Notes under the pieces: model-generated
Databases searched by the model: none
What the model was told of the DNA's origin: nothing
Seen by the model: only the letters and a program-made list of their open reading frames with translations
In this document: positions 32,301 to 52,962 of the stretch, one piece after another
Layout: every line of letters begins with the position of its first letter
Position numbering within the stretch: position 1 is the first letter of the stretch
Made by a program: the position numbers and the translations under genes
Source of the DNA: Nocardia sp. BMG51109
GTDB taxonomy: Bacteria; Actinomycetota; Actinomycetes; Mycobacteriales; Mycobacteriaceae
Assembly (NCBI RefSeq): GCF_000526215.1
Contig: NZ_JAFQ01000004.1
Location: 4,774,001-4,838,000 of the forward strand
Length of the DNA stretch: 64,000 nt
Direction of reading: 5' to 3'

Positions 32301-33832
32301 TCGTGCGGTCGCACACGGGAAACGACGCCGACACGCTGCGGGGTGTGGATGCGGCCGAGGGCCCGGAGCCCGACGGTACGCGGCCGCCCGCGGACGATGA
32401 CGACGCAACCCGGTGGGCGAACGCGGAATACGACCGGCTCATGCAGCAGCGCCGAAACCTCGCGCGGGAGCTGGAATTCTGGCACGCCAAGCTGGAAGAC
32501 CGGATCGATCGCAACCACAGCCAACCGGACGAGGAAACCCCTCGCCCTCGCGGCCCCATCCTCCGCTCGAACATCCCCCACCCGCCGCATGACGACGATC
32601 TTGAACTCCCCGAGGTAGAACCCAACACCCCCATAGACCCATGCCTCTCGTTCGCCCAACCTGAGGAACCTCCACACTCTCCGGAGCCTCCGCACCCCCC
32701 AAGACCCCCACACACGCCAGTGCCACCAGCACCTCCGGAGCCCGCCGAACCTGCCCGCCCGCCGGATCCTCCGAAACTCCCACAGCCGCCCGACCTTCCG
32801 CAGCCGCCTGAGCTGCCGGTGCCGCCTGAGCTGCCGCAGCCGCCCGAACTGCCGGTGCCGCCGGAATCGCCGACGTCTCCGTACCCGCCCCAGCCTCCGC
32901 AGGTTCCGGATTCCCCTGTGCCTCCGGGGCCGCCGGACACACCGGTGCCGCCGACCCAATCCAGCCCGCCGGGCGACTTCACGCTCCCCAGAACGCCCCG
33001 GGCCGTCCCTGAGGAGCCAGTAGCCGGGCAGCCGCCGATGCCTTCCGGGCAACAGCGGGATGAGCCGAGGACGCAGTGGCCGGTTCCTCCGGAGCAGAAG
33101 TGGTATTCTCCGCAACAGGGTCAGTCGGGCCAACACGGTGCGTCGGTGCATTCTGCCTGGTCGGGTTCGCCGCCGCCGGTGCCCTACGGTTCCGAGCAGT
33201 CTGCGCCCCAGGTTCCTTCCACGGATCACCGCTCAGCACAACATGTTTGGGGTGCGGGGCATCAGGTGACACAACCCACGACCCCAACGGCTCCGCCCTC
33301 GGGAACCGGATGGACGACTCCTCCGCCCCCGCCGTGGTCCCGTCCGGATTCGATGAGGCCATCCGGACCGCCCGGCGCCCCGGCCATGGACAGAGGTAAC
33401 GCTGCTCGTCGCCGGATGTTCACCACCACGCCGAAGCAGGCGAATGCGCAGATCACAGTGCAGGCTTACGGTGGATTCGGGGAGTACGCCCGGTTCGACC
33501 CGGCCACCGGCAGGCTGGAGGCGGTCGCGGCGGTGATGCAGGCGCCGGGTGGGGTCTACGGCGAGTTGGGTGGTGTGTCCGTGGTGTTCTATCGGAACGT
33601 CGACGGGCTGGCGTTGCGGGTGGGTGACCGGCTGCTGGACCTCGAGCCTGCCTCGGTGTCGGTGGTCTGGGAAGTGTTGGGGGAGAACCTGACTCGGTTC
33701 ATGGTGGTGGTCGGCGGGGCCGTCGCCTGTGAGCTGCGGTATCGCGCGATGTCGCCCGGATACGACATCGGGCTGCTGATTCGCGACGTCTGCGCCGACC
33801 CGGACCGCCGCGCGCGAATCTTCGGCCGGTGA
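20354..33832 (+). CDS. Giant T7SS polymorphic-toxin-like protein with multiple zincin modules
   Basis: 4492 residues from GTG 20354 (ATG 20375 is a good alternative and gives the usual family start MAELPGWLTWLEWV). Residues 1-310 resemble the WXG100-like N-terminal domain of CpnT-type proteins, ending in Ala/Gly-rich hydrophobic helices (VTGVSSAAGGAAAGPLGDKLG). Residues 345-840 are disordered Gly/Ser/Glu/Asp with repeats. Residues 840-2190 are mixed helical regions without a recognised family. Zincin module 1 has H2316-E-M-G-H2320 and a later GEGLAEGFAE; module 2 has H3883-E-L-G-H3887 and GEALADAF. Between them are helical YxxAYxxA segments, weakly like DUF6782 putative metallopeptidases, and a zincin-like part lacking HExxH. 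Residues 4080-4350 are Pro-rich, and a folded domain of about 140 residues ends the chain (QITVQAYGGFGEYARFDPATG to RARIFGR). No signal peptide. I infer a secreted or surface-delivered protease-type effector. Confidence 0.8.
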   Translation: MTSGWIGMAELPGWLTWLEWVAGSEWPDGDPDRMWNGVAQPWREAAEGLREISDDILDAKVASLNAYPSGAGIEEITKAFDQLMHGKSSVEELAKNFDLIAESAYQVGTEIEYTQLMFITSLGLLAAEIAAAWIWPPTAPAVQATAIAFTRIGLRMLSEALQQAVRRIVTKMIPSATLKFMARHVAIDTALGLMQEIGIQAYQVGAGHRKGGIDWGQVLVTGVSSAAGGAAAGPLGDKLGNALGKKLGDSLGAKVAGGAITGTTAGLAGAGAGYVAATGTQLALDTYHHGWDQAWGNAKSAGIDPHMFSAGASNGAISGANKAGATHFWNGHSPELMNRPGFGAQLNNMFDEMGVPGGGDGSAPRGSGESNLPGGKDDSSSEGSGKAGGRNVQPAGSSGQTPEGGQDSAPQEGAQSSDNGAGQQDSVGGAGPGRSERGPGEGGSSEQGDRAAGGEQGPERSGGSSDVGDRPGADSGAEDGAGQKDSGDSGDSGDKSDGRAGASSQQADVSGGAEGSRVEAGSEGSRVEGGSESSRVEGGAEDSRVEGGSEGSRVEGGVQDGVSKVGGEGVRPVSESSESGGNSVAPVASGAPVAGAAPSGPVAGAAPSSGVGSPPGGESQSGGSSSARGASPVRGPGDVTGGDQRAQGGAPEAGKPGGGERGSGAPPKAGGAGENAGPNGQNRSGATPEGEGRAGVSGLPPYGAGQSGVQATSGGSEVPQAPRQDPDASGKAEEPDGSAQFVAPVAAGEAPPQPARSAGGGGKEPPSNRSKPAGSPDDPGDDGSGSNRDDPQGKDPVDENSAAKDPGDKDPGDKDAGDKDTDNKDTDYYERSPLAPTSIEVPEGSRDITIEIDGEQVTVRCVPDGDGGWKPAPDEVAGSPASRDFDGPEQKSRLRRLLRSIREFITPRGYEGGAAKYPSGSRWDSRGQAAIKDGIVHAPDLLDPHPPSSTPPTSPTPPDGPQAGPGSDSGSAEDPVARMLKESVVVWKGREYLPFFGQLSSRMILHAGDHVPTYNSDGVEYKWWLSDEDLAEVHARLHQSLDEDHFRPEDALEDLRDLLEHPDTRHRIDPELRHKILLDLARFDTEAGDEAVQAILDHFDTVTDPALRQQIIRDLKTHYLIDTDQVKALEEAPIPDPPPESGPDPDHDDGPPPDDETLQEMAERLGFRLPDDDPRAIRAALAEQEYRCLRAAAAIEGLADAARRYAEEETRPYVFRDADGTERRVTVPIDMESVPRSFFDDNPAGHFLTQFMAASGDGMGLRQTQEVGNGADPLPEWTNVGENPEFGRDDGTPGWFEHALRRDQLADELQSWRQMFGLGLDEVIGRNPDGTPVLDGTLARLREENDARAERLAELMEAAEAELPPEQPPVGETLDDQAARIPVGEGDPDRLVVIDGPRDRDEVLADVLAADRDLADAVNNGEVVVDYRQVRDEDGHIHLDRVDTPEVRHHRGTIDDGELVATMVRHGDGEWRAVPHSIDPSPADGGIARPRSPQEMLGDLVDVARDLGLTPEDLTRMLESPQALERAIADLKLDNAVRAGQLEALSDFARSMNDIQDFYDLLSNNGKGRSPLAQLLGLSEEELTAEAVADRITDPEQRNAVRRQQLQALTDYAALVRRVGQPAVDVARDRFVRRLLGEDTDLTELSPERPEISPKGPVDWLPVEHGLDPKKLFNLVLDQHLRRNTEQVRAAFEEFAGALLEADPYSHGADGNRVPADPRGADTEAPVHDTEALPGLRDVIADAVGSADPREFGRAVAEAAARVAAEDGVSWNDSDPRLEPAGDWSRLVGVDVADADPETQAKVYEAYRDGRIDKHEGPEDLPAAVEELREEVRQRQDRINRLAALAEELRRNRAVGAGDEPGKPSAPPDGPPPASPRVQGDAPPLEGTPPESSTPPETSPSPDGAPPPEGTPPPESAPPTEGAVPRGEVTSSAGAAPAEGAVPRAETTVPESSAPSDVARDGGVQRDSAARVNPFDAALERAVAQAKEASWRNEEQAARQHEELMRRVRESQGEQAAQAIRDAARHEIDELNDAFRRNEAEAERQHQRLMDEVERLRASDVEANDSERQQDPFLTREEIEAEFRRRNEELEQDFQDLQDWLAQFRRGLFGDPDGRGDRGDDPPDAVPADGPRPEPDRPGGGAGRLPADGSTSDTGDSKNARSDAIAGEMSPTDGDSGADGRSRIDDDWLPLDPDGVAERLRDEFGVDFLDYDGVDPDVAREIGRSVEEMFTRFPRSEYPQMDLRLIRIGELAEGQFAKTTAIPRPHDNTQQYSVMTVNRTIATDLAKFHRSVDLNIGDGRFHRSFAERPVRAMILHEMGHVLDNAGSKMTRVRLGGDPPMDLLRVYVRKNPSADVLEFEEWLKQLSGYSFTDPATKTDFRPGEGLAEGFAEVMLWGDRASEPAHALYDLLEAAARNAPPIAPDPGADPDSNVSRQPESDYAHGRFDDGARDRNGDEWARPTPEEIAEILAEWHGLDVSGFDQDGVNAEIVRDIARATDRMLGKHRQTDPRSVGIGEVEPLAGARSGTDAMDGPLPHEDSPGGEEVSRERQAREYAHRAAHDPETQADGWLAHVPDPNFVQVWELLSHTEVGREAADVLREAEASVRFSELGKAPAEVDSFNGRTMDILIATDGRTHAEQAAAVVRAAERVRAIVSGDVEVTPARIAAMDRSDHLAAHDRIEAAAFGRKAEFEQQLRDAGFGIDRPFGLSPAQLSYRDEMRGVYRDAYNAAVDQARNSGVNLSAESLRGLGREAGTNALLVNGDFDAFGRPGATTDEREAPGREWDAAHDPAPPQGAAPPAWPEYVPHSADSAQQVQRLVREHAAATRRLRAVEESFDRAFDGVTQILNMLSGGVQGPAFTGTRAEQLEQMRQRDPNPDHSRRPDRLLMEDLIPRHAEIAGRREAIEREIAERVGLDLLDTLAADLGAPVLHTELGPADLVRITIDESGVVRLVHVSDDAAAGIPDNEPAAAAKGDSTPRSGPTLADWAADQWNGLRLPPGSSTQSPLRGSPVGRWAVSFLDRLGIDIRFSGEPEVTSALGYDPATGSVRLSTYGAPEFRMGDLIRAAVMADLAGEQRGWPQERSILDRAGYVDRMLDRQAEAHALAFEDIRQARGRDGGRDKYRDPLEVAYLDAHRDALRAAERMFGDSDAVHPWTHEAAAFRAGVRAVRARLHDLGPTVDGGNPATFYAAEWDRAHGIPPSNEVPPQPLDIRAVRAEPAYDFADEVPPPRPVDSPALRGERAHDFADEIETIRVMREAGTPAPVGPAERVYGNAYDKAYRKAVRAAERSADAPPPEQVAYEAGRKALRRYIDKVGLNRAEIAFDVVRAAIDGPHRRWGSPPEIRETDTSLETLTAAKKSTYKWTPEQLSEVARTALDRELDRTSAGERLTDNVALLPSRAMDPRPRLLVIAEAGGHLDALRRLAEQRPEYIDALWDGAHRLEYRSMVVGENGLLTFVDTDRRTAEGQYRMPEFGEATTQMLAHYLRYRSEGLTDLGYDAWLAQLGPYAFDTPARSRFDRSPSGLVGDFVDIGFEQARNDPTLGEPHPAHVAEQLKMRRIPTTSTDGLTPRDTLRYDLHTFQVGGVDLSVWLERDGSGGWRVPAPTPWGDAGDVLSRYLEGMSDADPQRLVNRIAETLRDGTAALDPSDEAGGGRLKRIADRLLRRDEPPSDTGDSGNGTPRNGESGYETRDRGTDPAEAPAVRDVVHRAGSPAVRDGVHRTEAPATRDTVHRNDSPDDAFVRPDESLSNRQPPTDDVWSALDRGGIVNELGKRYPWLEIRGFDSETDVVTLREYARAVDEILSRHPQIDLRRVEIADLDGNRHAEAAWRKRTDGTYYAESITLDRHFATHPEELRASKERAERTGYSPRGVADRPVYATIVHELGHALDYAGGKWARDLAEDVLLAHYKSTRGHVDAEEYHAWLRQLSRYSFQRGALRAGEALADAFLDVALNGRDASEPARVLHALLTGVARFEHGGFGRIVRSHTGNDADTLRGVDAAEGPEPDGTRPPADDDDATRWANAEYDRLMQQRRNLARELEFWHAKLEDRIDRNHSQPDEETPRPRGPILRSNIPHPPHDDDLELPEVEPNTPIDPCLSFAQPEEPPHSPEPPHPPRPPHTPVPPAPPEPAEPARPPDPPKLPQPPDLPQPPELPVPPELPQPPELPVPPESPTSPYPPQPPQVPDSPVPPGPPDTPVPPTQSSPPGDFTLPRTPRAVPEEPVAGQPPMPSGQQRDEPRTQWPVPPEQKWYSPQQGQSGQHGASVHSAWSGSPPPVPYGSEQSAPQVPSTDHRSAQHVWGAGHQVTQPTTPTAPPSGTGWTTPPPPPWSRPDSMRPSGPPGAPAMDRGNAARRRMFTTTPKQANAQITVQAYGGFGEYARFDPATGRLEAVAAVMQAPGGVYGELGGVSVVFYRNVDGLALRVGDRLLDLEPASVSVVWEVLGENLTRFMVVVGGAVACELRYRAMSPGYDIGLLIRDVCADPDRRARIFGR
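21899..22024 (+). repeat. 27-nt tandem repeat (SRVEGGSEG) in the giant protein
   Basis: Four full units and one partial unit encode SRVEAGSEG, SRVEGGSES, SRVEGGAED, SRVEGGSEG and SRVEGG within the acidic disordered linker. The regular spacing shows recent tandem duplication. Confidence 0.85.
26917..27600 (+). other. Zincin-like module 1 inside the giant protein (complete)
   Basis: Starts LPLDPDGVAERLRDEFGVDF, then a beta region (MDLRLIRIGELAEG). HExxH lies at residues 2316-2320 (ILHEMGHVLDNAG), followed by EEWLKQLSGYSFTDP and GEGLAEGFAEVMLWGDRASEPA. HExxH plus a downstream Glu in a helix is the gluzincin-type metal site: two His and a third Glu ligand (E2383 or E2387), with E2317 as general base. 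Predicted to be a catalytically competent metalloprotease domain. Confidence 0.7.
27718..27965 (+). other. N-terminal half of a third zincin-like module (degenerate)
   Basis: RPTPEEIAEILAEWHGLDV, IVRDIARATDRMLGKH and DPRSVGIGEVEPLAG align with the opening 60-70 residues of modules 1 and 2. The module then breaks off before any HExxH and runs into unrelated helices, so it is a partial duplicate. Confidence 0.5.
30560..30975 (+). other. Zincin-like module lacking HExxH (degenerate)
   Basis: LLVIAEAGGHLDALRRLAEQ stands where HExxH is expected (only EAGGH remains). LGYDAWLAQLGPYAFDTPARS and GLVGDFVDIGFEQA follow, matching the EEWLKQLSGYSF and GEGLAEGFAEV parts of module 1. Metal-binding residues are mostly lost, so this copy is probably structural or decaying. 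Confidence 0.5.
31618..32270 (+). other. Zincin-like module 2 inside the giant protein (complete)
   Basis: Begins VWSALDRGGIVNELGKRYPW and passes IDLRRVEIADLDG. It carries IVHELGHALDYAGGKW (H3883, E3884, H3887), then YHAWLRQLSRYSFQ and GEALADAFLDVALNGRDASEPA. It is paralogous to module 1 by order and spacing of motifs. The third metal ligand would be the Glu of GEAL; the second acidic position is Asp instead of Glu. Confidence 0.7.
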
Positions 33833-37513: not shown

Positions 37514-37960
37514 TCAGAGCGGCTGCGTCCCGGCTGCGTCCCAGCATCGGCCGTGCGCGGCAACGACCTCCTTCACCGATCGGGCCAGGCCATGCCACAG
37601 GTGCCAGCGGTCACTGACCTGCAACGCGCTGGGCCGTGTGCGCCGGATCGCTTCGGCGTAGGTGGCTGATCCATCGCGGACGACGACCTCTACGCCGGGG
37701 GTTGTCACGCAGCCACGCTTCGAGCGTGTCGGACTTGCGGTCGGCCAGAACATCGATCCGTTCGTGGGTGACCGCGTCGATGACCGCTGTGCCGTATCGG
37801 TTTCGGCGCCGCAGCGCGAAGTCGTCCACGCTGACGACCGGTGGAATCGGTCGGTGCGGGAGCGGAATCCGCAGCAACACTCGCACCGCGGTGTGGCGAG
37901 ACATCCGGACCGGCCTGGTACAGCGCCCGGAGGCGCATGATGGCGTCCAACCGACAACGT
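37514..37960 (-). pseudogene. ISL3-family transposase remnant
   Basis: Two minus-strand frames join across a shift near 37697: SVDDFALRRRNRYGTAVIDA, THERIDVLADRKSDTLEAWL, then GVEVVVRDGSATYAEAIRRT and SDRWHLWHGLARSVKEVV. These are the DDE core of ISL3 transposases (VDD and the RD of VVRDG). N- and C-terminal parts and the ends of the element are missing. Confidence 0.8.
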
Positions 37961-37984: not shown

Positions 37985-39352
37985 TTATTGACCAAGTGTG
38001 ACGGTGGGTGGTTTCCAGGTGCCGTCGAGGATGGTGTGGTCGGGCCAGTAGGCGCGTAGGTAGAGGGTGAATTCGTCGTCGGGTGCGGGGAGCCAGTTCG
38101 TGAGTTGTTTCTCGTCGCTGGGGGCGGGCCCGCCGATGGTGAGGGTGAGGGAGCCGTCGTCGCCGTAGGTGAGGTTCTGGTTCTTGGTGCCCAGTGAGAA
38201 CCTGTCGAGGTCGTTGGGGTGGAAGAAGTGGTGTTTGTTGTACACGGTCAGTGACCAGAATCCGCGCACCGGCGGTAGTTGACCTGCGGGGAAGTGCACG
38301 GTGTAGGTGTTGGCGCCGTGTAGCCGGTTCCCGGTGTTGTCGAGATCCTGATAGTAGTAGGAGGTTTCGTTCGGGGTGTTGACGAAGATGTTCGACTTGC
38401 CGACCGCAGTGCGGGACAGGTAGTCGGTGCCGAACGCGGCCCCGTTGCGCTGGGTGGTCCAGTTGCCGCCAGCGGGGAGTCCGTAGTTGCGGAATTCGAA
38501 GAGTTCCCGCACGACGGTGTCGGCGTCGATGGCGGCCTGCCGCAACGCTTCTGCGACACCGGAGTCACGGTCGGCGGCGGCAAGGATGGACCGGAACCAC
38601 GCGTAGAGGGCTTCTTCGCCGGGTAGCGGCGGCACCTCATCGAGCACTTCGGGAAGCACGGAGAAGTAGGTTTCGGGGTCCACCCATTGGGTTTCTGCTT
38701 GGTCGCCGGTGGCGTCCCCGCCGCCGTAGGAGGGGGCCTGTGACCAGTCCACGACTTTCGTGCTGCCGTCGAATTCCGACAGCGGGTACATGCTGATCCG
38801 GTCGATCAGCGGGGTGATCGCTTCGCGGTCTCGCGGGGTGTCGTCGAGGAACACCCGCGGGATTACCACTGCGGCGCGGGTGTCGTACCGGAACACGCCG
38901 GTGATGCCGGTGGGGACCGTGCCGTCCCAGGAGGTGGGTGCGAGCAGGTAGAAGCCCGGTGGGGTGTCGTACATCTTGCCGAGTTGCACGAACGAGTCGG
39001 TGCGCTGGTCGACGGCCTGGTACACCCAGAATCGGTCACCGAAATCGGGTACCTGCACCACCGACGGGCCGCGCTCGGCGTCGAGGACCCCGAATCCGTA
39101 GGCGACATCCTGATTCGGGCACGCGACGATTCGTTCCTCGGGGCGCACGTAGTCACGCAGCATGCCGAGCGTTCCGGGCGGGCCGGCGGGCACGATCCCG
39201 GCCAGCAGGCCCGGTGCGGGCAGCTGCTGCATGAACACCCGCCGGTTGTGCAGATTCACCAGCGGCCAGCCCCACAGATACGCCGAGCGCCCCACCGCGC
39301 TCGCGTAGTCGGGAAGCACCCTCGGATCGCCGAACGCACCGGTACCGGACAT
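37985..39352 (-). CDS. DUF1254/DUF1214-domain protein
   Basis: A 455-residue protein. ATG 39352 follows AGGGGAGC. The N-terminal DUF1254 region (about 20-170) includes YLWGWPLVNLHNRR, ACPNQDVAYGFGVLDAERG and GDRFWVYQAVDQRTD. The C-terminal DUF1214 region (about 340-440) includes GFWSLTVYNKHHFFHPNDLDR and a jelly-roll-like strand set. The pair of domains is common in actinobacteria and proteobacteria; the function is unsettled (some members bind lipids or are envelope-linked). No signal peptide is visible with this start. It stands alone between the ISL3 relic and the biosynthetic cluster. Confidence 0.85.
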   Translation of the reverse strand: MSGTGAFGDPRVLPDYASAVGRSAYLWGWPLVNLHNRRVFMQQLPAPGLLAGIVPAGPPGTLGMLRDYVRPEERIVACPNQDVAYGFGVLDAERGPSVVQVPDFGDRFWVYQAVDQRTDSFVQLGKMYDTPPGFYLLAPTSWDGTVPTGITGVFRYDTRAAVVIPRVFLDDTPRDREAITPLIDRISMYPLSEFDGSTKVVDWSQAPSYGGGDATGDQAETQWVDPETYFSVLPEVLDEVPPLPGEEALYAWFRSILAAADRDSGVAEALRQAAIDADTVVRELFEFRNYGLPAGGNWTTQRNGAAFGTDYLSRTAVGKSNIFVNTPNETSYYYQDLDNTGNRLHGANTYTVHFPAGQLPPVRGFWSLTVYNKHHFFHPNDLDRFSLGTKNQNLTYGDDGSLTLTIGGPAPSDEKQLTNWLPAPDDEFTLYLRAYWPDHTILDGTWKPPTVTLGQ

Positions 39353-39900
39353 CGACAGCTCCCCTTCCACCCGGATCTCTTCCTCAGTTCCCGGGGGACC
39401 GTATCCACCAGCCGAGCACACCCGCTTCACCCGAAACGGATGATCTACACGAGACTCGCTCTATTCGGCACGAGCGTGCGCACGGGCGAGATGCTGGCGG
39501 TGTGCCGGACGACCAACAACTGGCCGCCCATGAGGAAGCCCAGCGGGGAACCTACAGGGGCCGCTGACAAGCCACGAACCGGATCCGCAGCCGGTCAGAG
39601 GACTGCGGTCGGCCAGTGAATCATCGTGTGACCAGGTAAATCCAGGCGAATTTCGGCATCACCCGGTGATTTGGTGGACGGTCAGGGCTGAGGTTCGAGG
39701 GCCGGGGGGCTGCTGGGTCGGTGGGCCGGGCGGCCTGCGCTGACCGTGCGTTCGGCGGGTCGCCGAGGAGATGCACCGCGAGACCTTCGGCGCCCGCTGC
39801 CTCGTCGCGTGCTGTGGTGGCGTACCTGAGCCCTGGGGTGGGCCTTCGCCGAGATCCGTTCGTCGGTATGGCCGTGTCGGGACCCAAGGTGGTGTTGTCG
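39353..39900. other. Gene-free stretch
   Basis: About 550 bp between the DUF1254 gene and the end of the reductase gene. Several long open frames exist because of the high GC content, but none resembles a protein. It should hold the DUF1254 promoter and the terminator region of the reductase. Confidence 0.5.
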
Positions 39901-41286
39901 TTATGGGGAATCGACGTCGGACGGGGTGCTGCGCACGCCCGTGCTGCGGCCCCAATCGCTTGTGTAGGTGCGAGCTTCCATGAGGAAGTGGCTCAGGTAG
40001 CCGTCGTGCGGTCGGTGCGGGTGGTATGTGGTGGTCGGGGTGGGGCCGAGGTGGACGGCACGGATCGTCGGGGTGGCGGCGCAGCGTGCGGCAAGGGTGG
40101 CGTCGCGGCTCAGGAGGGTGAGCGCGAGGCTGTCTGCGAGGGCGCCGATTCCGATGTTGCGTGTCCAGGGCGCGATCCACACGCATGGGAAGGGTTGTTC
40201 GGTCGCGGTTGGGGCGCCGGGTGTGTCGGTGTGGAATACGGCGGGAAGTAGTGCGGCGCTGCCGTCTTCGAGGTCGGTGTACCGGTGCCTGCTGTCACCG
40301 ACGAGTTGGGCTCCGGCAACGCTGGTGACATGGTCGGCGACTGCTCGGGCTTCGGCGACGGTTCGCACCGGCAACTCGGCATCGGGATGTTCGGGTGGCC
40401 GCCCCACGAGGGCGGCGAGACGCTCGGCGAGCTCCCGCGCGAAGCGGGCATGATCCAAGCCCTGTTCGAGCAGGATCGTGGTCGCGTTGAGGCATTGGGT
40501 TCCGCCGTCCCCGGCCACCGACTCGACGAGCACGTCCAGGTAGTCGTAGGGGTCGGCGTCGCCGGTGATCAAGACTTTGGACCGGCCCGGGCCCTGGACA
40601 CGCACGGCCGGGTTACCGGCGTATGCAGTCACGACGTCCGTGCCGCCGTAGACGAGCCCCAGATCGGCTGCGCGGACCAGTGTTGCGGCGGTGGCGTGGT
40701 CGGTGGGCAGCAGAGCGAGGCGCTCCGGAGCGACACCGGCGGCCAGCAGGGCCCTGATCAGTCGGCGTGGTGTGTACGGGTCGCGGCGGGACGGCCGGAC
40801 CAGCACTCGGTAACCGAGGCCGAGAGCGGGCAGCCACTCGGCATGCGGCAGTGGATGATTGCCGGGCGCGAGCACGGCGAGAGTGTGGCCGCGCCGGGCC
40901 CATGCCACACCGTCGCTGCCGGTGGCGCGCGGCTGCTGCGCGGTGAGGGCGTCGGCGAGTCCAGCAGTGGCCTCGGCGATCGTGTGCAGGGCTCGGTGTG
41001 CCGCCCGGATCGGGATCCCCGATGTTCGGGATTGATGGTGGCAGTACTGTTCCGGTGATTCTCCGGCGACGTTCCCGGTCGCGAACAGCTGCCCGGCGGC
41101 GGCGATGGCGTCGAACAGGCGCGAATCCGGTTCTGCCAGTGCGGTTCCGGTCGCGAGGATGCGACGGATCAGTAGTTCGGGCGCGAGCCCGAGATCGGCG
41201 ACGGGCCGGCCGGTGACGTCGGGAAGCGGTTCGCGGTGCAGGGATCGATAGTCGGTGCCGTCGCGGATGATGTCGACGGATTCCAC
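39901..41286 (-). CDS. LuxC/EhpG-type acyl reductase (aldehyde dehydrogenase superfamily)
   Basis: 461 residues from GTG 41286, only 2 nt after the stop of the activating-enzyme gene, so the two are coupled. The ALDH-like fold shows TLAVLAPGNHPLPHAEWLPALGL, VLVRPSRRDPYTPRRL and GLVYGGTDVVTAYAG, then a catalytic Cys, C265, in GGTQCLNATTILLEQ. The overall order fits LuxC acyl reductases and EhpG of the phenazine/griseoluteic-acid pathway, which reduce an activated carboxylate to an aldehyde with NAD(P)H. Here the likely substrate is activated 2,3-dihydroxybenzoate, because the divergent genes make that acid. The substrate is inferred. Confidence 0.7.
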   Translation of the reverse strand: MESVDIIRDGTDYRSLHREPLPDVTGRPVADLGLAPELLIRRILATGTALAEPDSRLFDAIAAAGQLFATGNVAGESPEQYCHHQSRTSGIPIRAAHRALHTIAEATAGLADALTAQQPRATGSDGVAWARRGHTLAVLAPGNHPLPHAEWLPALGLGYRVLVRPSRRDPYTPRRLIRALLAAGVAPERLALLPTDHATAATLVRAADLGLVYGGTDVVTAYAGNPAVRVQGPGRSKVLITGDADPYDYLDVLVESVAGDGGTQCLNATTILLEQGLDHARFARELAERLAALVGRPPEHPDAELPVRTVAEARAVADHVTSVAGAQLVGDSRHRYTDLEDGSAALLPAVFHTDTPGAPTATEQPFPCVWIAPWTRNIGIGALADSLALTLLSRDATLAARCAATPTIRAVHLGPTPTTTYHPHRPHDGYLSHFLMEARTYTSDWGRSTGVRSTPSDVDSP

Positions 41287-41288
41287 GG

Positions 41289-42389
41289 TCAGTACACGCC
41301 TTCGACGATCGGCCGATTTGTGGTCGGGGCGGGCCGTATGTCGGCGACACAGTCGCCCGCCGAACCGGGAGCCGGTGCCAGCCGGGTGGCGAGATCGCGT
41401 TCGAGCACGGCCGGCAGGAACATCTCGCGGCTCAGATGGTGTAGCCGGACCTGTCCGCGCCGCCCGTGATCGACCTGGTTTCCGGTGTCGGGGTCGATGA
41501 CGTCGAGCAGCACGTGCGGATGGAACGGCTGGAATACACACCGGTATTCGTCGTCGGGCAGCGGGGGGCGTTGCGGTGCGACTCCCATGAGGGTGTTGCC
41601 GTATATCCCCGCCAGCGGGAGATCGGGGAACACTTCGTCGTCGAGCAGCCGCAGGGTTTCCTGATCGGTGGAGGTGCCGGACCAGAGGATGCCGCCGACC
41701 TTGGAACGAACGAGATTGCCGAGTCGAGTGTCGGCCATGGCCGTGAGCAATGGCGGTGTGGCCCACAGGATTTGCACCGATTGGGTTTCGAGTACCCAGC
41801 GTGCCTGGTCGAGGATGTGCCGGATATAGCGGTCGACGTCGTCGGTGCGCCCCTCCTGCGCGCAGCGGCGCACCCAGCGAGGATCGAAGTCGACGGTGAA
41901 GCAGGCGCCGCCGCGGCGGCGGGCCATGTCGATGAACAAGGCCCCGGCGACATGCGGACCGGTCGGGCCGAGGTAGAGCCAGTTCCCGCCGCGCGGCATA
42001 CCGATGGCGTCGAGCCGGTCACTGGTCCAGGCGGCGGTGCGCCGCCAGTACTCGAACTCGGCGATCCGTTTCGGTGCGCCCGTAGTGCCGCCGCTGTCGT
42101 AGACGTACGGGATCGCCGATCCGGATTCGGCGATGCCGCGCGGCACCAGATCCTCGATCGGAGCGGTCCGCCATTCGCTGCTGACGTCCGGGAAACGCAG
42201 CAGATCCGTACGAGTGTGCACCTGGTCCCGCGGATCGAATCCGAGCGATTCGGCGCGCCGCAGCCAGAACGGTGCACCGGTCTCGGGTGAGAAGTGCCAA
42301 AGGATTGCTGCGCGGATGAGGGCGTCTTCGTCGGGGAGGGCATCGACCGGTGCCTGCAGGATTTCGTCGATTGCGGTACCGAGCGACAC
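41289..42389 (-). CDS. LuxE/EhpF-type carboxylate-activating enzyme (ANL-like)
   Basis: 366 residues from GTG 42389 behind GAGAGGTG. The nucleotide loop is DSGGTTGAPKRIA (about 98-110), followed by WLYLGPTGPHVAGALFIDMA, LWATPPLLTAMA, GGILWSGTSTDQET and GIYGNTLMGVAP, resembling the short phenylacetate-CoA-ligase-like enzymes EhpF and LuxE. They lack the full C-terminal ANL lid. It should form an acyl-adenylate (or acyl-enzyme) handed to the reductase encoded next. It is not EntE/DhbE: much shorter, and no EntE signature is present. Start-to-start distance to the divergent entA-like gene is about 130 bp. Confidence 0.72.
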   Translation of the reverse strand: MSLGTAIDEILQAPVDALPDEDALIRAAILWHFSPETGAPFWLRRAESLGFDPRDQVHTRTDLLRFPDVSSEWRTAPIEDLVPRGIAESGSAIPYVYDSGGTTGAPKRIAEFEYWRRTAAWTSDRLDAIGMPRGGNWLYLGPTGPHVAGALFIDMARRRGGACFTVDFDPRWVRRCAQEGRTDDVDRYIRHILDQARWVLETQSVQILWATPPLLTAMADTRLGNLVRSKVGGILWSGTSTDQETLRLLDDEVFPDLPLAGIYGNTLMGVAPQRPPLPDDEYRCVFQPFHPHVLLDVIDPDTGNQVDHGRRGQVRLHHLSREMFLPAVLERDLATRLAPAPGSAGDCVADIRPAPTTNRPIVEGVY

Positions 42390-42407
42390 GCGAGCACCTC
42401 TCGTAAG

Positions 42408-42436
42408 TTGACCGAATGTGTCCTGCGAGCAAGGAT
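42408..42436 (+). promoter_or_regulatory. Possible sigma-A-type promoter for the entA-like operon
   Basis: TTGACC at 42408-42413 and AAGGAT at 42431-42436 are separated by 17 nt and lie 85 bp before GTG 42521. In the whole divergent gap I found no IdeR-type iron box (TTAGG palindrome), which argues against simple iron control. Confidence 0.35.
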
Positions 42437-42520
42437 CTGCCCTTGTCATCGAGGCGATGCTAGCAGCGGCCGGGCAGCCGTACGGCCCGAAACGGACCAT
42501 GATCGGGAAGGACGGACCGG

Positions 42521-43261
42521 GTGTCGGGTGTGGCGGTGGTGACCGGGGCTGCGGGTGGAATCGGGTCTGCTGTGGCCGTGTTGCTGGCGAAGAACGGTTG
42601 GGCGGTTACGGGATTGGACGTTCGTCCCGAACCGGAAACCATCCCGACAGCGGATGTCGCCGTGTCGGGCTGCAACGTCGCTGACCCCGACGCGGTGCAG
42701 GCGGCGTTCGATCGGATCGAGCGGGACCAGGGGCCGATCGATCTGCTGGTGAACGCAGCCGGGATTCTGCGGATCGCGCCCGCGGCCGAGGTAACCGACG
42801 CCGACTGGGCGGCGACCTTCGCCGTGAACGCCGCAGGCGTCATGCACTGCTGTCGTCGCGCCGCGGCCACGATGGTGCCGCGCCGCAGCGGAAATATCGT
42901 CACTGTCGGGTCGAACGCCGCCAGAGTTCCCCGCATGAATTTCGCGGCCTACTGCGCGGCCAAGGCCGCCGCCGTCCAGTACACCCGATGCCTCGGACTC
43001 GAACTGGCGCGCTACGGAATTCGCTGCAACACGGTCTCTCCCGGTTCCACCGATACCGCCATGCAGCGGGCGTTGTGGACCGACGACACCGGCGCCCGGA
43101 AGACCATCGCCGGTTCACTCGAGGGGTTCCGGGCGGGAATACCGCTCGGGCGGATCGCCGCCCCGGAGGACATCGCCGATGTCGTGTTGTTCCTGGCCTC
43201 CGACCACGCCCGCCATATCACGATGCAGGACATCGTCGTCGACGGCGGCGCCGGCCTGTAG
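42521..43261 (+). CDS. 2,3-dihydro-2,3-dihydroxybenzoate dehydrogenase (EntA/DhbA-like)
   Basis: A 246-residue SDR starting at GTG 42521. [15 protein letters not shown] binds [14 protein letters not shown] is the NNAG region, and YCAAK holds the catalytic Tyr and Lys. [15 protein letters not shown] matches the DhbA/EntA substrate-side motif SPGSTxTxMQ. It oxidises 2,3-dihydro-2,3-dihydroxybenzoate to 2,3-dihydroxybenzoate. It is followed after 49 bp by the isochorismate synthase gene; together with the isochorismatase these three make the acid from chorismate. Confidence 0.88.
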
Positions 43262-43310
43262 CGCCATCCGGACCCACCACAACGACCACCTTTCACTCGT
43301 ACGGGGACAG

Positions 43311-44471
43311 ATGACCACGACCACAGGGAAATCGTCGGCGAGCGCGATCGAACCTTTCGACCATCGGGCAGGTGATTTTCTTTTCTTCTCGCCCCACACC
43401 AGATTTCGCGCCCGCGGACCACTGCGGCGGATCGAAGCCCCGACCGGTCCGGAACTGCCGACGGCAGTAGCCGGTGCGCTGGGTGCGGCTCACGACGCGG
43501 GCGCGCCGAATCCAATCGTGGTGGGGGCATTGCCGTTTCGGCCGGACCGTCCCAGCGCTATCTATTGTGCGGATACGGTATGTCCCGTCCTCGAACCGGA
43601 CATCGATGCCTCGCCCGGGGCCGGTGGGTCCGTCATCGGTCACACGCCCGACGGGCCCGGGTACCGTGCCGGTGTACGGCGCGCCCTGGCAATGATCGAG
43701 GGCGGGGTGGTGGACAAGGTCGTGCTCTCACGTGCCGTGGACGTCGACTGTGCTGCCGACGTGCCGTCGGTGGTCGCCCGGTTGGCAGCCCGGGATCCGC
43801 ACGCCTACGTGTTCGCCACTGAACTACCCGCCCCGGACGAAACCCCCGCCACCCTGGTAGGCGCGAGCCCGGAACTATTGGTCGCACGGCACGGCGCCAC
43901 CGTCACCAGTCATCCGCTGGCCGGGTCGCTGCCCCGATCGTCCGATTCGAGAGAGGATCGCCGCCGGGCCGAAGCATTGCTCGCATCGAGCAAAGACACC
44001 ACCGAACACGCCTTCGTCGTCGACGCCATCGCAGCGACACTGCGGCCGCGCTGTCGGGCGCTGTCCGTTCCGGCCACACCGCAGTTGACCCGGACCGCCG
44101 CCATGTGGCATCTGGGCACCCCGATCGTCGGCGAACTCGACGACACCTCGATCGGCTCACTGGAATTGGCACTTGCCCTGCATCCCACACCCGCAGTATG
44201 CGGTAGCCCCCGGAACGCGGCACTGGCCGCGATCGATTCGATCGAACCGTATGATCGCGGCTTCTACACCGGGCTTGTCGGGTGGAGCGACGGCAGCGGC
44301 GACGGCGAATGGGCGGTCACCATCCGCTGCGCGGTCCTCGGCGAATCGACTGCTCGCTTATACGCGGGAGCCGGAATCGTCGCCGCCTCCGACCCGGACG
44401 CCGAACTGGCCGAAACCACCGCAAAACTCGCCACGATCCGGACAGCGCTGGGAATCACCGACCCGACGTGA
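43311..44471 (+). CDS. Isochorismate synthase (EntC/DhbC-like)
   Basis: 386 residues from ATG 43311 behind GGGGACAG. Chorismate-binding-family motifs are [13 protein letters not shown] (general-base Lys), [38 protein letters not shown] and [20 protein letters not shown]. All are in the order found in EntC/DhbC, and no anthranilate- or salicylate-type fusion is present. It converts chorismate to isochorismate with Mg2+. Second gene of the plus-strand operon. Confidence 0.9.
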
Positions 44472-44537
44472 GCACCATCGCCGTATCCAACCGGTGCGCG
44501 TCCGCACGACTCCTCCAACCCGACAGGAAGATCACCT

Positions 44538-45326
44538 ATGGCCCTACCCGCCATCTCCGGATACTCGATGCCCACAACCGATGGCCTGCCGGCGAATACG
44601 CTGTCCGGACCGGTGCACCCGTCCCGTGCGGCACTGCTGATCCACGATATGCAGAACCATTTCCTGGCGCCGTTCGAGCGCGACCGATCGCCGCTGACAG
44701 AACTGCTGACCAACATCGGACGACTCCGGAATCTCTGTCACACCGTGGGTATTCCGGTCGTGTACAGCACACAACCAGGCGGGCAGAGCGCACGGGAACG
44801 CGGCCTGCTGCGCGAGATGTGGGGTAACGGGATCGCCGGAGACGGAATCGGCGACCGCATCGTCGAGGACCTGACTCCGCGCCCAGGCGACATTTGCTTG
44901 ACCAAATACCGATACAGCGCATTCTTCGGCACCGACCTGCACGAGCAGTTGATCCGCGCCGGACGCGACCAACTCATCATTTGCGGTATCTACGCCCACA
45001 TCGGCTGTCTCGCCACCGCCTGCGACGCATTCATGCGCGACATCCGACCGTTCATGGTGTCCGACGCAGTAGCCGACTTCGATGCCGAACACCACCACAC
45101 TGCCCTCTGCTGGGCAGCAAAACGTTGCGCCGTCGTGGAATCTACCGCCACCGTGCTCGGTGCCTTGCAGGCCGCCACCGACAATGTGCCACCCACCGAA
45201 CCCGAACACTCGACTCGGACAGCAGCCGAACCGACGGGAGAACCCAACCACAGTCATGGCCGCGACCGACCGCTCAACATCGAGGCCGTCGACTCCCTCC
45301 ACGTCGCCACCCAGAGACCGCACTGA
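44538..45326 (+). CDS. Isochorismatase, stand-alone (EntB/DhbB N-domain-like)
   Basis: 262 residues from ATG 44538 behind AGGAAGATC. The isochorismatase domain (1-210) has catalytic Asp37 in LLIHDMQNHF, Lys in LTKYRYSAFF, and ICGIYAHIGCLATACDAFMRD, where Gly-Cys replaces the usual nucleophilic Cys position, as in EntB/PhzD vinyl-ether hydrolases. It splits pyruvate from isochorismate. The C-terminal 45 residues are Pro/Thr/His-rich and disordered; the aryl-carrier domain of EntB/DhbB with its DS(L) phosphopantetheine site is absent, so the product is presumably released as free acid. Confidence 0.88.
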   Translation: MALPAISGYSMPTTDGLPANTLSGPVHPSRAALLIHDMQNHFLAPFERDRSPLTELLTNIGRLRNLCHTVGIPVVYSTQPGGQSARERGLLREMWGNGIAGDGIGDRIVEDLTPRPGDICLTKYRYSAFFGTDLHEQLIRAGRDQLIICGIYAHIGCLATACDAFMRDIRPFMVSDAVADFDAEHHHTALCWAAKRCAVVESTATVLGALQAATDNVPPTEPEHSTRTAAEPTGEPNHSHGRDRPLNIEAVDSLHVATQRPH

Positions 45327-45339
45327 AATCGGCATGAGC

Positions 45340-46125
45340 GTGCCCACGGCGGGGACCCGGCCGACGCCTTCCACGTCGTCGTCCCCTCGCTGCCGGGATT
45401 CGCCTTCTCCAGCCCGCTGTCAGCGCGTGGCTGGAACCTCGACCGCACCGCGATGGCGTTCGGGGAGGGAGCTGATGACCCGGTTCGGGTGCGAGCGTTT
45501 CGGTGTAGAGGACGGGGACGTCGGCGCTGGGGTAACCGGCCGGGTGGCGGGCCTGTTGCCCGAGCGGGTGATCGGCGCGCACACCCACGGCGACCGTCTC
45601 CAGCTCGGCATGGTCGGCTAGGATTTTCCCGTCCTCGCAGGGTTGACCGCCGACGAGCAGAACAAACTCGAAGCGGCGCAATACAGCTGGTCGCAGATGA
45701 AGGGCTACCGGGTGCTGCAATCGACCGAGCCCAATGCCCTGTCGGTGGGCTTGGCCGATTCGCCGATCCTGCCGCTGGCCTGGATCGCCGAAAGCTCGAG
45801 GAATGGGCCAACCCCGCGACACCGAGCCGCGACAACGTCCTGATCACCGCGAGCCTGTACTGGTTCACCCGCATCGGGTCCGCGGCAGCCGACTTCTACT
45901 GGGAAATGGCCCACGCCGGGAACACCGGCTGGGGGCGGGTCTTCACCGGTGCCCCAAGGCCAGTCGCTGTTCTACAGCGACCACCTCCTCCGCAAGGCCC
46001 TCGGCGCCGGCGACAGCGTCGCCTTCTTCCGTGACTACACCGAGGGCGGGCACTTCCCCGCCTTCGAAGTTCCCGACCTGTTCGTCGACGACATCCGCGC
46101 CTACTTCCGACAACTCCGCACCTGA
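45340..46125 (+). pseudogene. Epoxide hydrolase (EHN-type) pseudogene
   Basis: Pieces in all three frames line up with EHN-domain epoxide hydrolases: DAFHVVVPSLPGFAFSSPL, then FGVEDGDVGAGVTGRVAGLLPE (nucleophile Asp region), KLEAAQYSWSQMKGYRVLQ, DNVLITASLYWFTRIGSAAADF, and last VAFFRDYTEGGHFPAFEVPD with the catalytic His region, ending in a natural stop at 46125. A stop after LQLGMVG and two or more frameshifts kill it, and the N-terminal third is missing. Confidence 0.75.
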
Positions 46126-46281
46126 CCTCGCGGGCGGAGCCGCCGTCCCCCAGATACCGGGTGGTGGTGAGCATGCGGGGGTTGCGTCGGATTCCCATGC
46201 ATGTCGGTAGAGCCGGGCACGATGGGTGTGTGGCAGAGGGTCGCCGGAGTGGTCGGGGGCTGCTGGACGGAGGGAGTCGTC

Positions 46282-46733: not shown

Positions 46734-47029
46734 TTAAGCAGCCTGCCGGGCTGCTGGGGACATGATGGTTTCGAACTCGATAGGAGTCAATCGGCCGAGG
46801 CGGGCTTGCCGACGCCGACGGTGGTAGGTGCGTTCGATCCAGGTGACGATCGCGATCCGCAGTTGTTCGCGGGTGTCCCACCGCTGCCGGTCCAGCACGT
46901 TGCGTTGCAGCAGACTGAAGAAGCTTTCCATCGCGGCATTGTCACCGGCCGCACCGACCCGGCCCATCGACCCGGACATTCCGAAACGGTTGAGCGCGTG
47001 GACAAATCGGCGGGAACGAAATTGGCCGG
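46734..47029 (-). pseudogene. IS3-family transposase OrfB, C-terminal piece
   Basis: MSGSMGRVGAAGDNAAMESFF, LLQRNVLDRQRW and TYHRRRRQARLGRLTPIEFE form the end of an IS3-type OrfB (the last catalytic Glu is in AMESFF). The N-terminal half lies beyond an IS30 piece at 47390-47690, if both halves belong to one element. Confidence 0.75.
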
Positions 47030-47383
47030 ATTCAATCGGTCGTCGCAACACCGGCTTGTTGGAGTGATCGTAGATGTTCGTCGAACGCTTCGGCGGGGGT
47101 CTTCCAGCCGAGTGTCTTGCGGGGCCTGGTGTTGAGGGTGTGTGCGATCGCTCCGATCTCCTCGGCGTCCCATCGGGATAGGTCGGTGCCCTTCGGAAAG
47201 TATTGCCGCAGAAGACCGTTCGTGTTCTCGTTCGTGCCGCGCTGCCAGGGGCTCTTAGGGTCGGCGAAGTAGACCTTCACTCCGGTGGTGATGGTGAATC
47301 TGGCATGGTCGGACAGTTCCTTGCCCCGGTCCCAGGTCAGCGAGTTGCGTAGTTGCTGCGGCAGTGTGGTGACCGCTCACCCT
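47030..47383 (-). pseudogene. IS30-family transposase, C-terminal piece lodged in IS3 orfB
   Basis: The minus-strand frame reads LTWDRGKELSDHARFTITTG, VYFADPKSPWQRGTNENTNG, LLRQYFPKGTDLSRWDAEEI and LNTRPRKTLGWKTPAEAF, unmistakable for IS30 (DDE Glu in TNENTNG). Only the last 110 or so residues are present, sandwiched between IS3 orfB halves. The N-terminal IS30 part is missing. Confidence 0.85.
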
Positions 47384-47971
47384 GATCACGTAACTCGCCG
47401 GTGATCCGCGGTGATCCGTAGGTGCCGTGCGATTCGCGATGAACCGTGGCGATTTTCGTTTCCAGATCCGCGTGCCGCTGCTGGCGGTCGGTGAGAACCG
47501 TTGCCGCCCTGCGTTTCACATACGCGTAGTAGCCCGACTTCGATACCTGCAACAGTCGTGCCATGCGGCGAACCGAAAACCGTTGCCCTGCAGGCTGACC
47601 GGTACCGGCAACACCGGTGACATCGTCGGGGCCGGCGTACTTCACCATCAGGCCGAACCGGGCCGGTTCGTCTGCATCGCGGCAAAGTACGCCGACGCTT
47701 TTTTCAGGAACGCGATGTCTTTGTCCTGCTCGGCGACCTGCCTTCGCAGTCGCGCCAGCTCGGCCCGCTCGGCGGCATCCAAAGGCTTTTCCCCGTGGAC
47801 CTCGGCGGCGGCGATCCTGCGCCGCTCGTCTTTGACCCACGTCCCCAGCAAACTCTCGTGAATACCCAGTTCCCGGGCGACTTCAGCGACCGTGCGACCC
47901 GAATCGATCACACGATGCGCAGCCTCGACCTTGTACTCGGCCGTGAACGACCGACGCTTACGAGGAGGCAT
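47384..47971 (-). pseudogene. IS3-family orfA and start of orfB with programmed frameshift site
   Basis: OrfA (47648-47971, 107 residues) has the HTH RKRRSFTAEYKVEAAHRVID, TVAEVARELGIHESLLGTWV and a leucine-zipper region. At about 47697-47703 the minus strand reads A6G (AAAAAAG), the classic -1 slippage site of IS3 elements. The -1 frame continues into OrfB as EKSVGVLCRDADEPARFGLM, MARLLQVSKSGYYAYVKRR and HGTYGSPRITGELRDQG, then hits the IS30 piece. OrfA itself is intact. Confidence 0.8.
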
Positions 47972-51474: not shown

Positions 51475-52962
51475 GTGAATACGGGTGAATCGTGGCCGGA
51501 CTTCGACGAAGCCTGGTCGCGAGTACGGCGGATGCAGGCCAAACTGCACTGGTGGGCGATCCGGGATCCGGGTCGCGTGTTCGAGGATCTGCACAATCTG
51601 GTGAGTGATCCGGCGTTTCTGGTGCATGCCTGGGAACGGGTGCGTAGCAACAAAGGTGGCCGAACCGCCGGGGTTGATGGGGTGAAGCCTGCCTCGATCC
51701 CGAGGAACTCGATGGTCTTGTTGTCGCGGCTGCGAACGGAGTTGAAGGACCGGAGCTTCCGTCCGGACCGGGTCCGGGAGAAGTCGATTCCGAAACCGGG
51801 CAGCACGGACAAGAAGCGCCGGTTGGGGATACCGACCGCAGGCGACCGCATTGTTCAGGCGGCGTTGAAGTTGGTACTCGAGCCGATCTTCGAGGCGGAT
51901 TTCCAGCCCGGTTCCTACGGGTTCCGCCCGAATCGTCGCGCTCAGGACGCGATCGCCGAGATTCACTTGTTCGGCAACCGGGGTTACACCTGGGTGCTGG
52001 AGGCCGATATCGAGGCGTGTTTCGACCGGATCGACCACACGGCCCTGATGGACCGGATGCGTCACCGGATCAGGGACAAACGCGTTCTCGCCCTGGTCAA
52101 GTCGTTTCTCAAAGCAGGAATCCTCAGCGAGGACGGCATCGACCGGGAAGCGCTCACCGGAACCCCGCAGGGCGGGATTCTGTCGCCTTTGCTGGCGAAT
52201 ATCGCCCTGTCGGTGCTCGATGACCACTATCAACACAAGTGGGATGCCTTCTCTGCCGGGAAGCCCTCGCCGAACGCGGGCTGGCAGGGACGGCAACGAG
52301 AGCGCCGCAACGGGGGCGCGACCTACCGGCTCGTCCGCTACGCGGACGATTTCGTGGTCCTGGTCAACGGCGAGAGACACCACGCCGAACAAGCCAGGAC
52401 CGAGGTCGCGGACATTCTGGCCCCGATGGGTTTGACCCTGTCGGAGCCGAAAACCCATGTGGTGCACATGGATACCGGGTTCGACTTCCTCGGCTGGCGC
52501 ATCCAGCGCCGGACGAAGCCGGGCACGGTGAACAAGGCAGTGATTCACACCTATCCGTCGAAGAAGTCGCTGGCTTCGATCATGCGGAAGGTGAAGTTTC
52601 ACACGCGCAGATCCGCACCCTACAAGACGTTGGCCGACATGCTCTTTCACCTGAACCGAACGGTCCGGGGCTGGTGTCTCTATTTCCGACACGGTGTCTC
52701 GTTTGCTACCTACCGCTACCTGCAGCACTACACGTGGGTTCGCGCCATGAGGTGGCTCTACAAGAGACACTCGCGCCTGAGCTGGCGCAAAGTGCTTCGC
52801 CGGTATTGCACCCCGGCTCCGATGCGCCGCCCAGCAGAGAACGGGATCGTGCTCTATAACCCGACCGACACCGGAATCGAACGCTACCGGTGGCGTGGCT
52901 ACACCATCCCGACACCCTGGAGCAACGCGGCACAACGTCTGGCGACAACCACGCCAGCATGA
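51475..52962 (+). CDS. ltrA: Group II intron reverse transcriptase/maturase
   Basis: 495 residues from GTG 51475 with GGAGG upstream. RT blocks are KSIPKPGSTDKKRRLGIPT, GSYGFRPNRRAQDAI, WVLEADIEACFDRIDH (first Asp), GTPQGGILSPLLANI and LVRYADDFVVLV (catalytic YADD). The maturase X domain follows, with VRGWCLYFRHG and YLQHYTWVRAMRWLYKRH. No HNH endonuclease domain is seen at the C-terminus, so retrohoming would rely on single-stranded or replication-fork targets. It promotes splicing of its own intron and target-primed reverse transcription. Confidence 0.93.
   Translation: MNTGESWPDFDEAWSRVRRMQAKLHWWAIRDPGRVFEDLHNLVSDPAFLVHAWERVRSNKGGRTAGVDGVKPASIPRNSMVLLSRLRTELKDRSFRPDRVREKSIPKPGSTDKKRRLGIPTAGDRIVQAALKLVLEPIFEADFQPGSYGFRPNRRAQDAIAEIHLFGNRGYTWVLEADIEACFDRIDHTALMDRMRHRIRDKRVLALVKSFLKAGILSEDGIDREALTGTPQGGILSPLLANIALSVLDDHYQHKWDAFSAGKPSPNAGWQGRQRERRNGGATYRLVRYADDFVVLVNGERHHAEQARTEVADILAPMGLTLSEPKTHVVHMDTGFDFLGWRIQRRTKPGTVNKAVIHTYPSKKSLASIMRKVKFHTRRSAPYKTLADMLFHLNRTVRGWCLYFRHGVSFATYRYLQHYTWVRAMRWLYKRHSRLSWRKVLRRYCTPAPMRRPAENGIVLYNPTDTGIERYRWRGYTIPTPWSNAAQRLATTTPA

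Follow-up and report, generated by a model that had tools for sequence, protein, structure and literature searches.

Gene content of the locus

The stretch of DNA analysed here (64,000 nucleotides, positions 4,774,001 to 4,838,000 of contig NZ_JAFQ01000004.1 of Nocardia sp. BMG51109; "the window") carries five genes between its positions 39901 and 45326. All five frames are confirmed and open, and their orientations are those given by an earlier, sequence-only reading of the same DNA. Two of the genes, ehpF and ehpG, form a minus-strand operon, and the other three, entA, entC and entB, lie divergently on the plus strand. EhpF is an aryl-acid adenylating enzyme of the EhpF/GriC type (41289-42389, 366 residues) in which the SGGTTGAPK loop is present. 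After a spacing of 2 bp it is directly followed downstream by EhpG, an EhpG/GriD-type acyl reductase of the aldehyde-dehydrogenase superfamily (39901-41286, 461 residues) with a predicted catalytic Cys265. The divergent intergenic region (42390-42520) measures 131 bp, contains a near-palindrome at 42455-42468, and presumably holds the promoters of both operons. On its other side are an EntA-type 2,3-dihydro-2,3-dihydroxybenzoate dehydrogenase (42521-43261, 246 residues), an EntC/DhbC-type isochorismate synthase (43311-44471, 386 residues), and an EntB/PhzD-type isochorismatase (44538-45326, 262 residues) that ends in an unmatched tail of about 50 residues. A longer EhpF frame opens at ATG 42500; the start is most likely GTG 42389, because the database protein P0001 also has 366 residues, most homologues start at around residue 44 of that frame, and a ribosome-binding-like GAGAGG lies upstream. 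The corrected starts of EntC and EhpG are ATG 43311 and GTG 41286, respectively; the profile and structure scans of EntC began at 43308, and thus with one additional N-terminal residue.

The plus-strand genes had been read as a set for 2,3-dihydroxybenzoate (DHB), and the profile searches bear this out. EntA passes the cut-offs of both NCBIfam TIGR04316 (327.8 bits, cut-off 300) and PRK08220 (326.4, cut-off 312), and it matches the solved EntA structures 8sbv (4e-61) and 2fwm (2e-58). EntC passes the isochorismate synthase model TIGR00543 (274.5 bits, cut-off 224.75) and stays below the cut-off of the narrower DhbC equivalog PRK06923 (411.7, cut-off 486). Its best solved structure is DhbC (3os6, 1.5e-99), with EntC next (7e-71), and the Pfam scan finds no amidotransferase domain on it. 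The Lys, Glu and HPTPA residues, catalytic ones among them, are conserved in the alignment to the EntC structure. EntB matches the Pfam Isochorismatase family PF00857 with 143.7 bits over residues 31-204, and no carrier domain is found in the Pfam scan. Among solved structures PhzD (1nf9, 5e-60) comes slightly ahead of EntB (2fq1, 1e-54), so these matches would fit an EntB-type and a PhzD-type enzyme alike. Its GIYAHIG motif corresponds to GVYAHVG of PhzD and has Gly at the hydrolase Cys position, presumably an isochorismatase motif. Together, enzymes of these three predicted types suffice to lead from chorismate to DHB. EntC alone is no marker of such a set, since 147 of 148 genomes of the genus have a homologue at 1e-55 or better, with 43-54% identity among the matches listed outside this genome.

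The reductase pair and its relatives

EhpF aligns over residues 7-366 of 366 with the EhpF structures 3l2k/3hgu (1.3e-72), the only solved structure that it matches under 1e-10, and its match to Pfam AMP-binding (22 bits) lies below the cut-off of 29.9. EhpG matches Pfam PF00171 with 55 bits, its solved-structure matches are general aldehyde dehydrogenases only, and the column of Cys265 holds Cys in all 99 aligned rows. EhpF and EhpG are 69.4% and 59.6% identical to their counterparts in Streptomyces enissocaesilis, and 36.6% and 29.5% identical to the proteins of the Pantoea ehp operon. The pair had been likened to LuxE/EhpF plus LuxC/EhpG, and only half of this comparison stands. By sequence kinship the pair is of the EhpF/EhpG (GriC/GriD) aryl-acid reductase type, and the aryl-aldehyde reading already proposed is supported. 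Neither protein matches Pfam LuxE (PF04443) or LuxC (PF05893) at E 0.001, and a fatty-acyl LuxC/LuxE reading was rejected on this ground. Among the EhpG relatives listed, one with 44% identity (P0189) carries a LuxC label alongside Aldedh.

EhpF-like proteins are common: of the 8000 proteins scored in a search with EhpF, 3731 matched at E 0.001 or better. The closest among the 120 matches listed come from S. enissocaesilis (69%) and Actinomadura barringtoniae (60%), followed by P0004 (58%). Counting the genome itself, homologues occur in 52 of 150 same-genus genomes and in 58 of 394 genomes of the class sample; they also occur in 3 of 65 Actinomadura genomes and 120 of 392 Streptomyces genomes (best identity 55%). 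With the S. enissocaesilis protein (P0002) as query, a second sample of 392 Streptomyces genomes, largely the same ones, gave a best identity of 57%. Plasmids contribute 28 records, all below 60% identity, and among viral contigs 19 stretches fit a pattern, none of them a relative. None of the homologues in 51 of the 149 other same-genus genomes exceeds 49% identity, so that the pair was probably acquired from outside the genus. A comparison of the flank through its enoyl-CoA hydratase gave a match in 27 of 40 genomes, with 57% as the best identity outside this one. In S. enissocaesilis, EhpF (P0002), EhpG (P0122) and an isochorismate synthase (P0249) are each on a contig of 76,806 bp. This is very likely one and the same contig, equal length being no proof, and the core of the neighbourhood therefore probably recurs there.

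The company kept by EhpF homologues was surveyed in 98 loci of at least 7 kb: 79 of the 80 best among 273 relatives, and 19 of 20 picked among the best genome matches. Two loci below 7 kb are excluded, near-copies are retained, and the locus of the window is not among the 98. As the gene finder favours a high GC content at third codon positions (GC3) and missed EntC and EntB of the window, tblastn was used to score the marker genes, against bit thresholds of our own choice. Phenazine genes accompany 13 loci, genes for 3-amino-4-hydroxybenzoate (3,4-AHBA) seven, PabAB five, an isochorismate synthase with a cyclase two, PhzE with PhzD and EntA two, and PhzE with PhzD another two. In total, 31 of the 98 loci (13+7+5+2+2+2) carry aryl-acid genes of these six kinds no more than about 10 kb from the pair, which is what one would expect if the reductase acts on aryl acids in general. 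Further loci have PhzF with PhzB (one), PhzB only (three), PhzD only (one) or a cyclase only (one). A DhbC-type synthase of at least 200 bits is found in none of the 98, which makes the combination of DHB genes with the pair a rare one. When the markers were checked, the BagC/FevH-like 3,4-AHBA synthase reached 727 bits (cut-off 750) and passed the 3-dehydroquinate synthase II subfamily, the BagB/FevI-like aldolase reached 422 (cut-off 500) and passed the ADH-synthase subfamily, and the PhzF, PhzG and PabB proteins passed their cut-offs. Annotated plasmids carry the same modules: a Pantoea ehp-type operon, isochorismate synthase accompanied by DAHP synthase and cyclase, and PabB. In a Streptomyces module (L159 8307-14246, L163 8122-14545, L216 4597-10602), an isochorismate synthase, EhpF and a DAHP synthase stand divergently from EhpG and a cyclase/arylformamidase-like protein. 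These three loci gave no match for an isochorismatase, and the module may offer a further way of turning isochorismate into an aryl aldehyde. In L024 and L068, EhpF/EhpG have PhzE, PhzD and an EntA-like dehydrogenase in their vicinity, the genes one would expect for 3-hydroxyanthranilate.

Trees of EhpF (97 rows) and EhpG (99 rows) were built by a quick search without bootstrap, and the support values are those of the Shimodaira-Hasegawa-like approximate likelihood ratio test; seven EhpF and four EhpG rows were dropped as their frames were not recovered by the gene finder. In the EhpF tree the window joins S. enissocaesilis (support 98) inside a seven-row set (99) that adds Saccharothrix obliqua (L011), S. 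tamanrassetensis (L019), A. barringtoniae (twice, P0003 and L157) and P0004, all within a 28-row side (96). In the EhpG tree the window again joins S. enissocaesilis (100), followed by the next set (97) and a 27-row side (100). In both trees the window's side holds all seven 3,4-AHBA loci, three of the five PabAB loci, both loci with isochorismate synthase and cyclase, and none of the 13 phenazine loci. This placement suggests that the pair belongs mainly among reductases of one-ring benzoate-type acids, apart from the phenazine loci.

A second DHB set and the genomic surroundings

The sequence-only reading had noted that the usual partners of a DHB set are missing, and locally this is so. Neither EntE nor a carrier nor a non-ribosomal peptide synthetase (NRPS) is found among ten proteins scanned from the region, which does not classify as a catechol siderophore cluster. 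None of the 118 genome matches of the EntE model falls in the window (the model also picks NRPS domains, and 99 of 179 candidates were scored). The claim does not extend to the whole genome: the highest-scoring EntE-type match, with 670 bits against a cut-off of 723.55, lies at C4:1343805, about 3.5 Mb from the window, in a locus (L179) with an EntA-like protein (274 bits, cut-off 300), an EntC-like protein (TIGR00543, 219.6, cut-off 224.75) and a 223-residue isochorismatase. A nearby 2410-residue frame has an adenylation-type match, which makes an NRPS likely at this second set, and on the same models EntA and EntC of the window score higher than those of the second set. Given this other set with its EntE-type ligase, a siderophore probably does not depend on the set of the window, and the view that it serves something else gains accordingly. 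The missing carrier domain of the isochorismatase, offered earlier as a clue, proves not to be diagnostic. Isochorismatases of four DHB clusters have 223 (this genome), 214 (L181), 210 (L182) and 211 (L183) residues; all four are judged by size too short for a carrier domain, and the latter three have EntE-like neighbours identified by eye. The absence of an IdeR-type iron box is upheld, in that the window contains no match with up to three mismatches to an IUPAC consensus of the IdeR/DmdR box (0.39 expected by chance).

Insertion-sequence remnants lie on both sides of the five genes: a weak transposase remnant of ISL3 type at 37514-37957, and another within 46734-47971. The five genes have a low GC3, 0.74-0.82, compared to 0.887 (sd 0.03) for 43 genes elsewhere in the genome, a background itself selected for high GC3, so that the contrast is overstated. 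Directly behind EntB, a frame-broken remnant of epoxide-hydrolase type can be recognised by eye (45341-46200, plus strand), and about 0.5 kb downstream of EhpG the next gene encodes a DUF1254/DUF1214 protein (37985-39358, minus strand). Further away on the plus strand are a group II intron reverse transcriptase/maturase (51682-52962) and a very large open frame (22586-33832, 3748 residues by the gene finder). To the right of the window, about 20 kb from EntB, P450-like and mevalonate-pathway-like genes were noted by eye (L178 4229-15687, approximately 66-78 kb in window numbering). A PADLOC scan gave one weak match.

A candidate route to 2,3-dihydroxybenzaldehyde and its alternatives

With the gene content, the open frames and the family kinship established, we infer the individual reactions, the acid that the pair reduces and the end product from the predicted enzyme types. 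EntC would isomerise chorismate to isochorismate, EntB would remove pyruvate to give 2,3-dihydro-2,3-dihydroxybenzoate, and EntA would oxidise this to DHB. EhpF would adenylate the DHB carboxylate with ATP, and EhpG would take the acyl group on Cys265 and use NAD(P)H for its reduction to 2,3-dihydroxybenzaldehyde, which may be the product itself or be finished by enzymes outside the five genes. That the pair reduces DHB to this aldehyde, in a compact pathway free of NRPS, appears to us reasonably probable. The chances are about even for the wider proposal: a dedicated chorismate-to-2,3-dihydroxybenzaldehyde pathway, the first to route DHB to an EhpF/EhpG-type reductase. Such a pathway would be common to S. 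enissocaesilis and this genome, and would hint at catechol aldehydes made without NRPS as a family not seen so far.

Several observations weigh against DHB reduction by the pair. Of the 98 EhpF loci, 61 have no marker at all, and two of the five PabAB loci as well as both 3-hydroxyanthranilate-type loci fall on the phenazine side of the trees. The EntC tree (47 chosen rows) groups the window, S. enissocaesilis and P0245 weakly (94/54), and the co-location in S. enissocaesilis is drawn from equal contig size and covers EhpF, EhpG and isochorismate synthase only. In A. barringtoniae (G550), whose EhpF is 60% identical, scoring 150 of 200 candidates gave no match to EntA at 1e-40, so the clade of the pair is not tied to DHB; there the pair sits at the extreme end of a contig (L157), with one side out of view. 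In the sister clade, an EntE-like-carrier fusion adjoins the pair of S. obliqua. This locus (L011 5933-12344) encodes five proteins in one direction. The DHB-AMP-ligase-like-carrier fusion reaches 638 bits with TIGR02275 (cut-off 723.55) and 43 bits with PP-binding. The halogenase-family protein reaches 239 bits with PF04820 and, with CmlS as its best NCBIfam model, 277 bits, far short of the cut-off (900). The other three are an EF-hand protein and the pair itself. The arrangement can be taken in two ways, as a point in favour of hydroxybenzoate-like substrates and as a warning that a carrier may be involved. An EntE next to the pair in relatives, named by the sequence-only reading as a sign against it, is thus found in part, in the sister clade. 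The gene row of S. obliqua suggests a halogenated aryl aldehyde; S. tamanrassetensis has similar halogenase and EF-hand proteins by eye, and no ligase was seen there. The low GC3 and the flanking insertion-sequence remnants, finally, point to a recent arrival that is possibly unexpressed.

This last point leads to the idea of a transferred fragment that has lost its expression. The remnants on both sides, the broken hydrolase frame behind EntB, the low GC3 (for what the overstated contrast is worth) and the distance from all same-genus EhpF proteins agree with it, whereas the five open frames and the presence of the motifs checked make it rather improbable. A somewhat stronger, still unlikely, explanation is that the operons are neighbours from separate pathways, the DHB genes being an extra supply for a siderophore whose assembly is encoded elsewhere in the genome, and EhpF/EhpG reducing some other aryl or heteroaryl acid. 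The second DHB set with its ligase, the case of A. barringtoniae and the wide variety of EhpF contexts would suit such a division, but the divergent operons are only 131 bp apart, their core genes probably lie together in S. enissocaesilis, and the missing iron box leaves no sign of siderophore-type control. Were the isochorismatase to act as PhzD, the pair might reduce 3-hydroxyanthranilate or a phenazine precursor, as its best structural match and the gene sets of L024 and L068 would allow. We hold this very improbable. The chorismate enzyme is a DhbC-type synthase lacking an amidotransferase domain and standing in place of PhzE, on which ground the reading was rejected; PhzE, PhzF, PhzB and PhzG are not among the ten region proteins scanned (all with Pfam, nine also with NCBIfam), and the pair stands apart from phenazine loci in both trees.

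The remaining alternative is compatible with DHB reduction by the pair. As we suggest tentatively, the aldehyde may be no more than an intermediate: a host reductase, an amine or genes outside the window would convert it to 2,3-dihydroxybenzyl alcohol, to an imine or to something larger. The five-gene set has no obvious tailoring gene, and the aldehyde of the grixazone pathway is described in an excerpt of PMC10179220 as proceeding to a phenoxazinone; on the other hand, no clear partner is adjacent, the next protein on the EhpF/EhpG strand being that with DUF1254/DUF1214.

If DHB reduction by the pair is correct, one two-gene reductase plugs into several aryl-acid pathways, chorismate-derived ones and others: those of 3,4-AHBA, p-aminobenzoate, phenazines, 3-hydroxyanthranilate and isochorismate, and now of DHB. 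One genome could then have two copies of a siderophore precursor pathway and put it to a new use, and five genes would give a direct route to a reactive, metal-binding catechol aldehyde, of use in genome mining and in host production. Many EhpF/EhpG-type genes are currently labelled "phenazine biosynthesis protein".

The locus resembles several known systems in part. With the entCEBA and dhbACEBF siderophore clusters it shares EntA, EntC and EntB homologues, but it has no EntE, carrier or NRPS beside these genes and no iron box. LuxC/LuxE fatty-acid reductases work alike, through an acyl-AMP, then a cysteine-bound acyl group, then the aldehyde; the pair of the window differs in having no Pfam LuxE/LuxC match. 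Carboxylic acid reductases carry out the same overall reaction as that predicted here, as fused adenylation, carrier and reductase domains, whereas the pair consists of separate proteins without a carrier domain. EhpF/EhpG of the D-alanylgriseoluteic acid (phenazine) operon share family and gene order with the pair; the differences are the low identity to the Pantoea proteins and the absence of phz genes among the window proteins scanned. The 3,4-AHBA loci, which by gene context we take to be of the GriC/GriD type, have pairs on the same side of both trees, 48-51% (EhpF) and 35-39% (EhpG) identical to those of the window. The ehp operon is covered in excerpts of PMC3175449 and PMC11278526, and 3,5-dihydroxybenzaldehyde has another origin in an excerpt of PMC5132015. 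The sequence-only reading knew of no cluster of this make-up, and in agreement, searches of the open-access literature listed no described DHB-aldehyde, salicylaldehyde or isochorismate-plus-reductase cluster, itself weak evidence of novelty. The closest likeness is to the grixazone clusters of Streptomyces griseus, which also have a two-gene pair of AMP-binding protein and reductase: GriC adenylates 3,4-AHBA, and GriD reduces it to the aldehyde via acyl-AMP (excerpt of PMC10179220). There the substrate genes make 3,4-AHBA, and here they are predicted to make DHB; the locus is a new pairing of two known kits, one for DHB and one for aryl-acid reduction.

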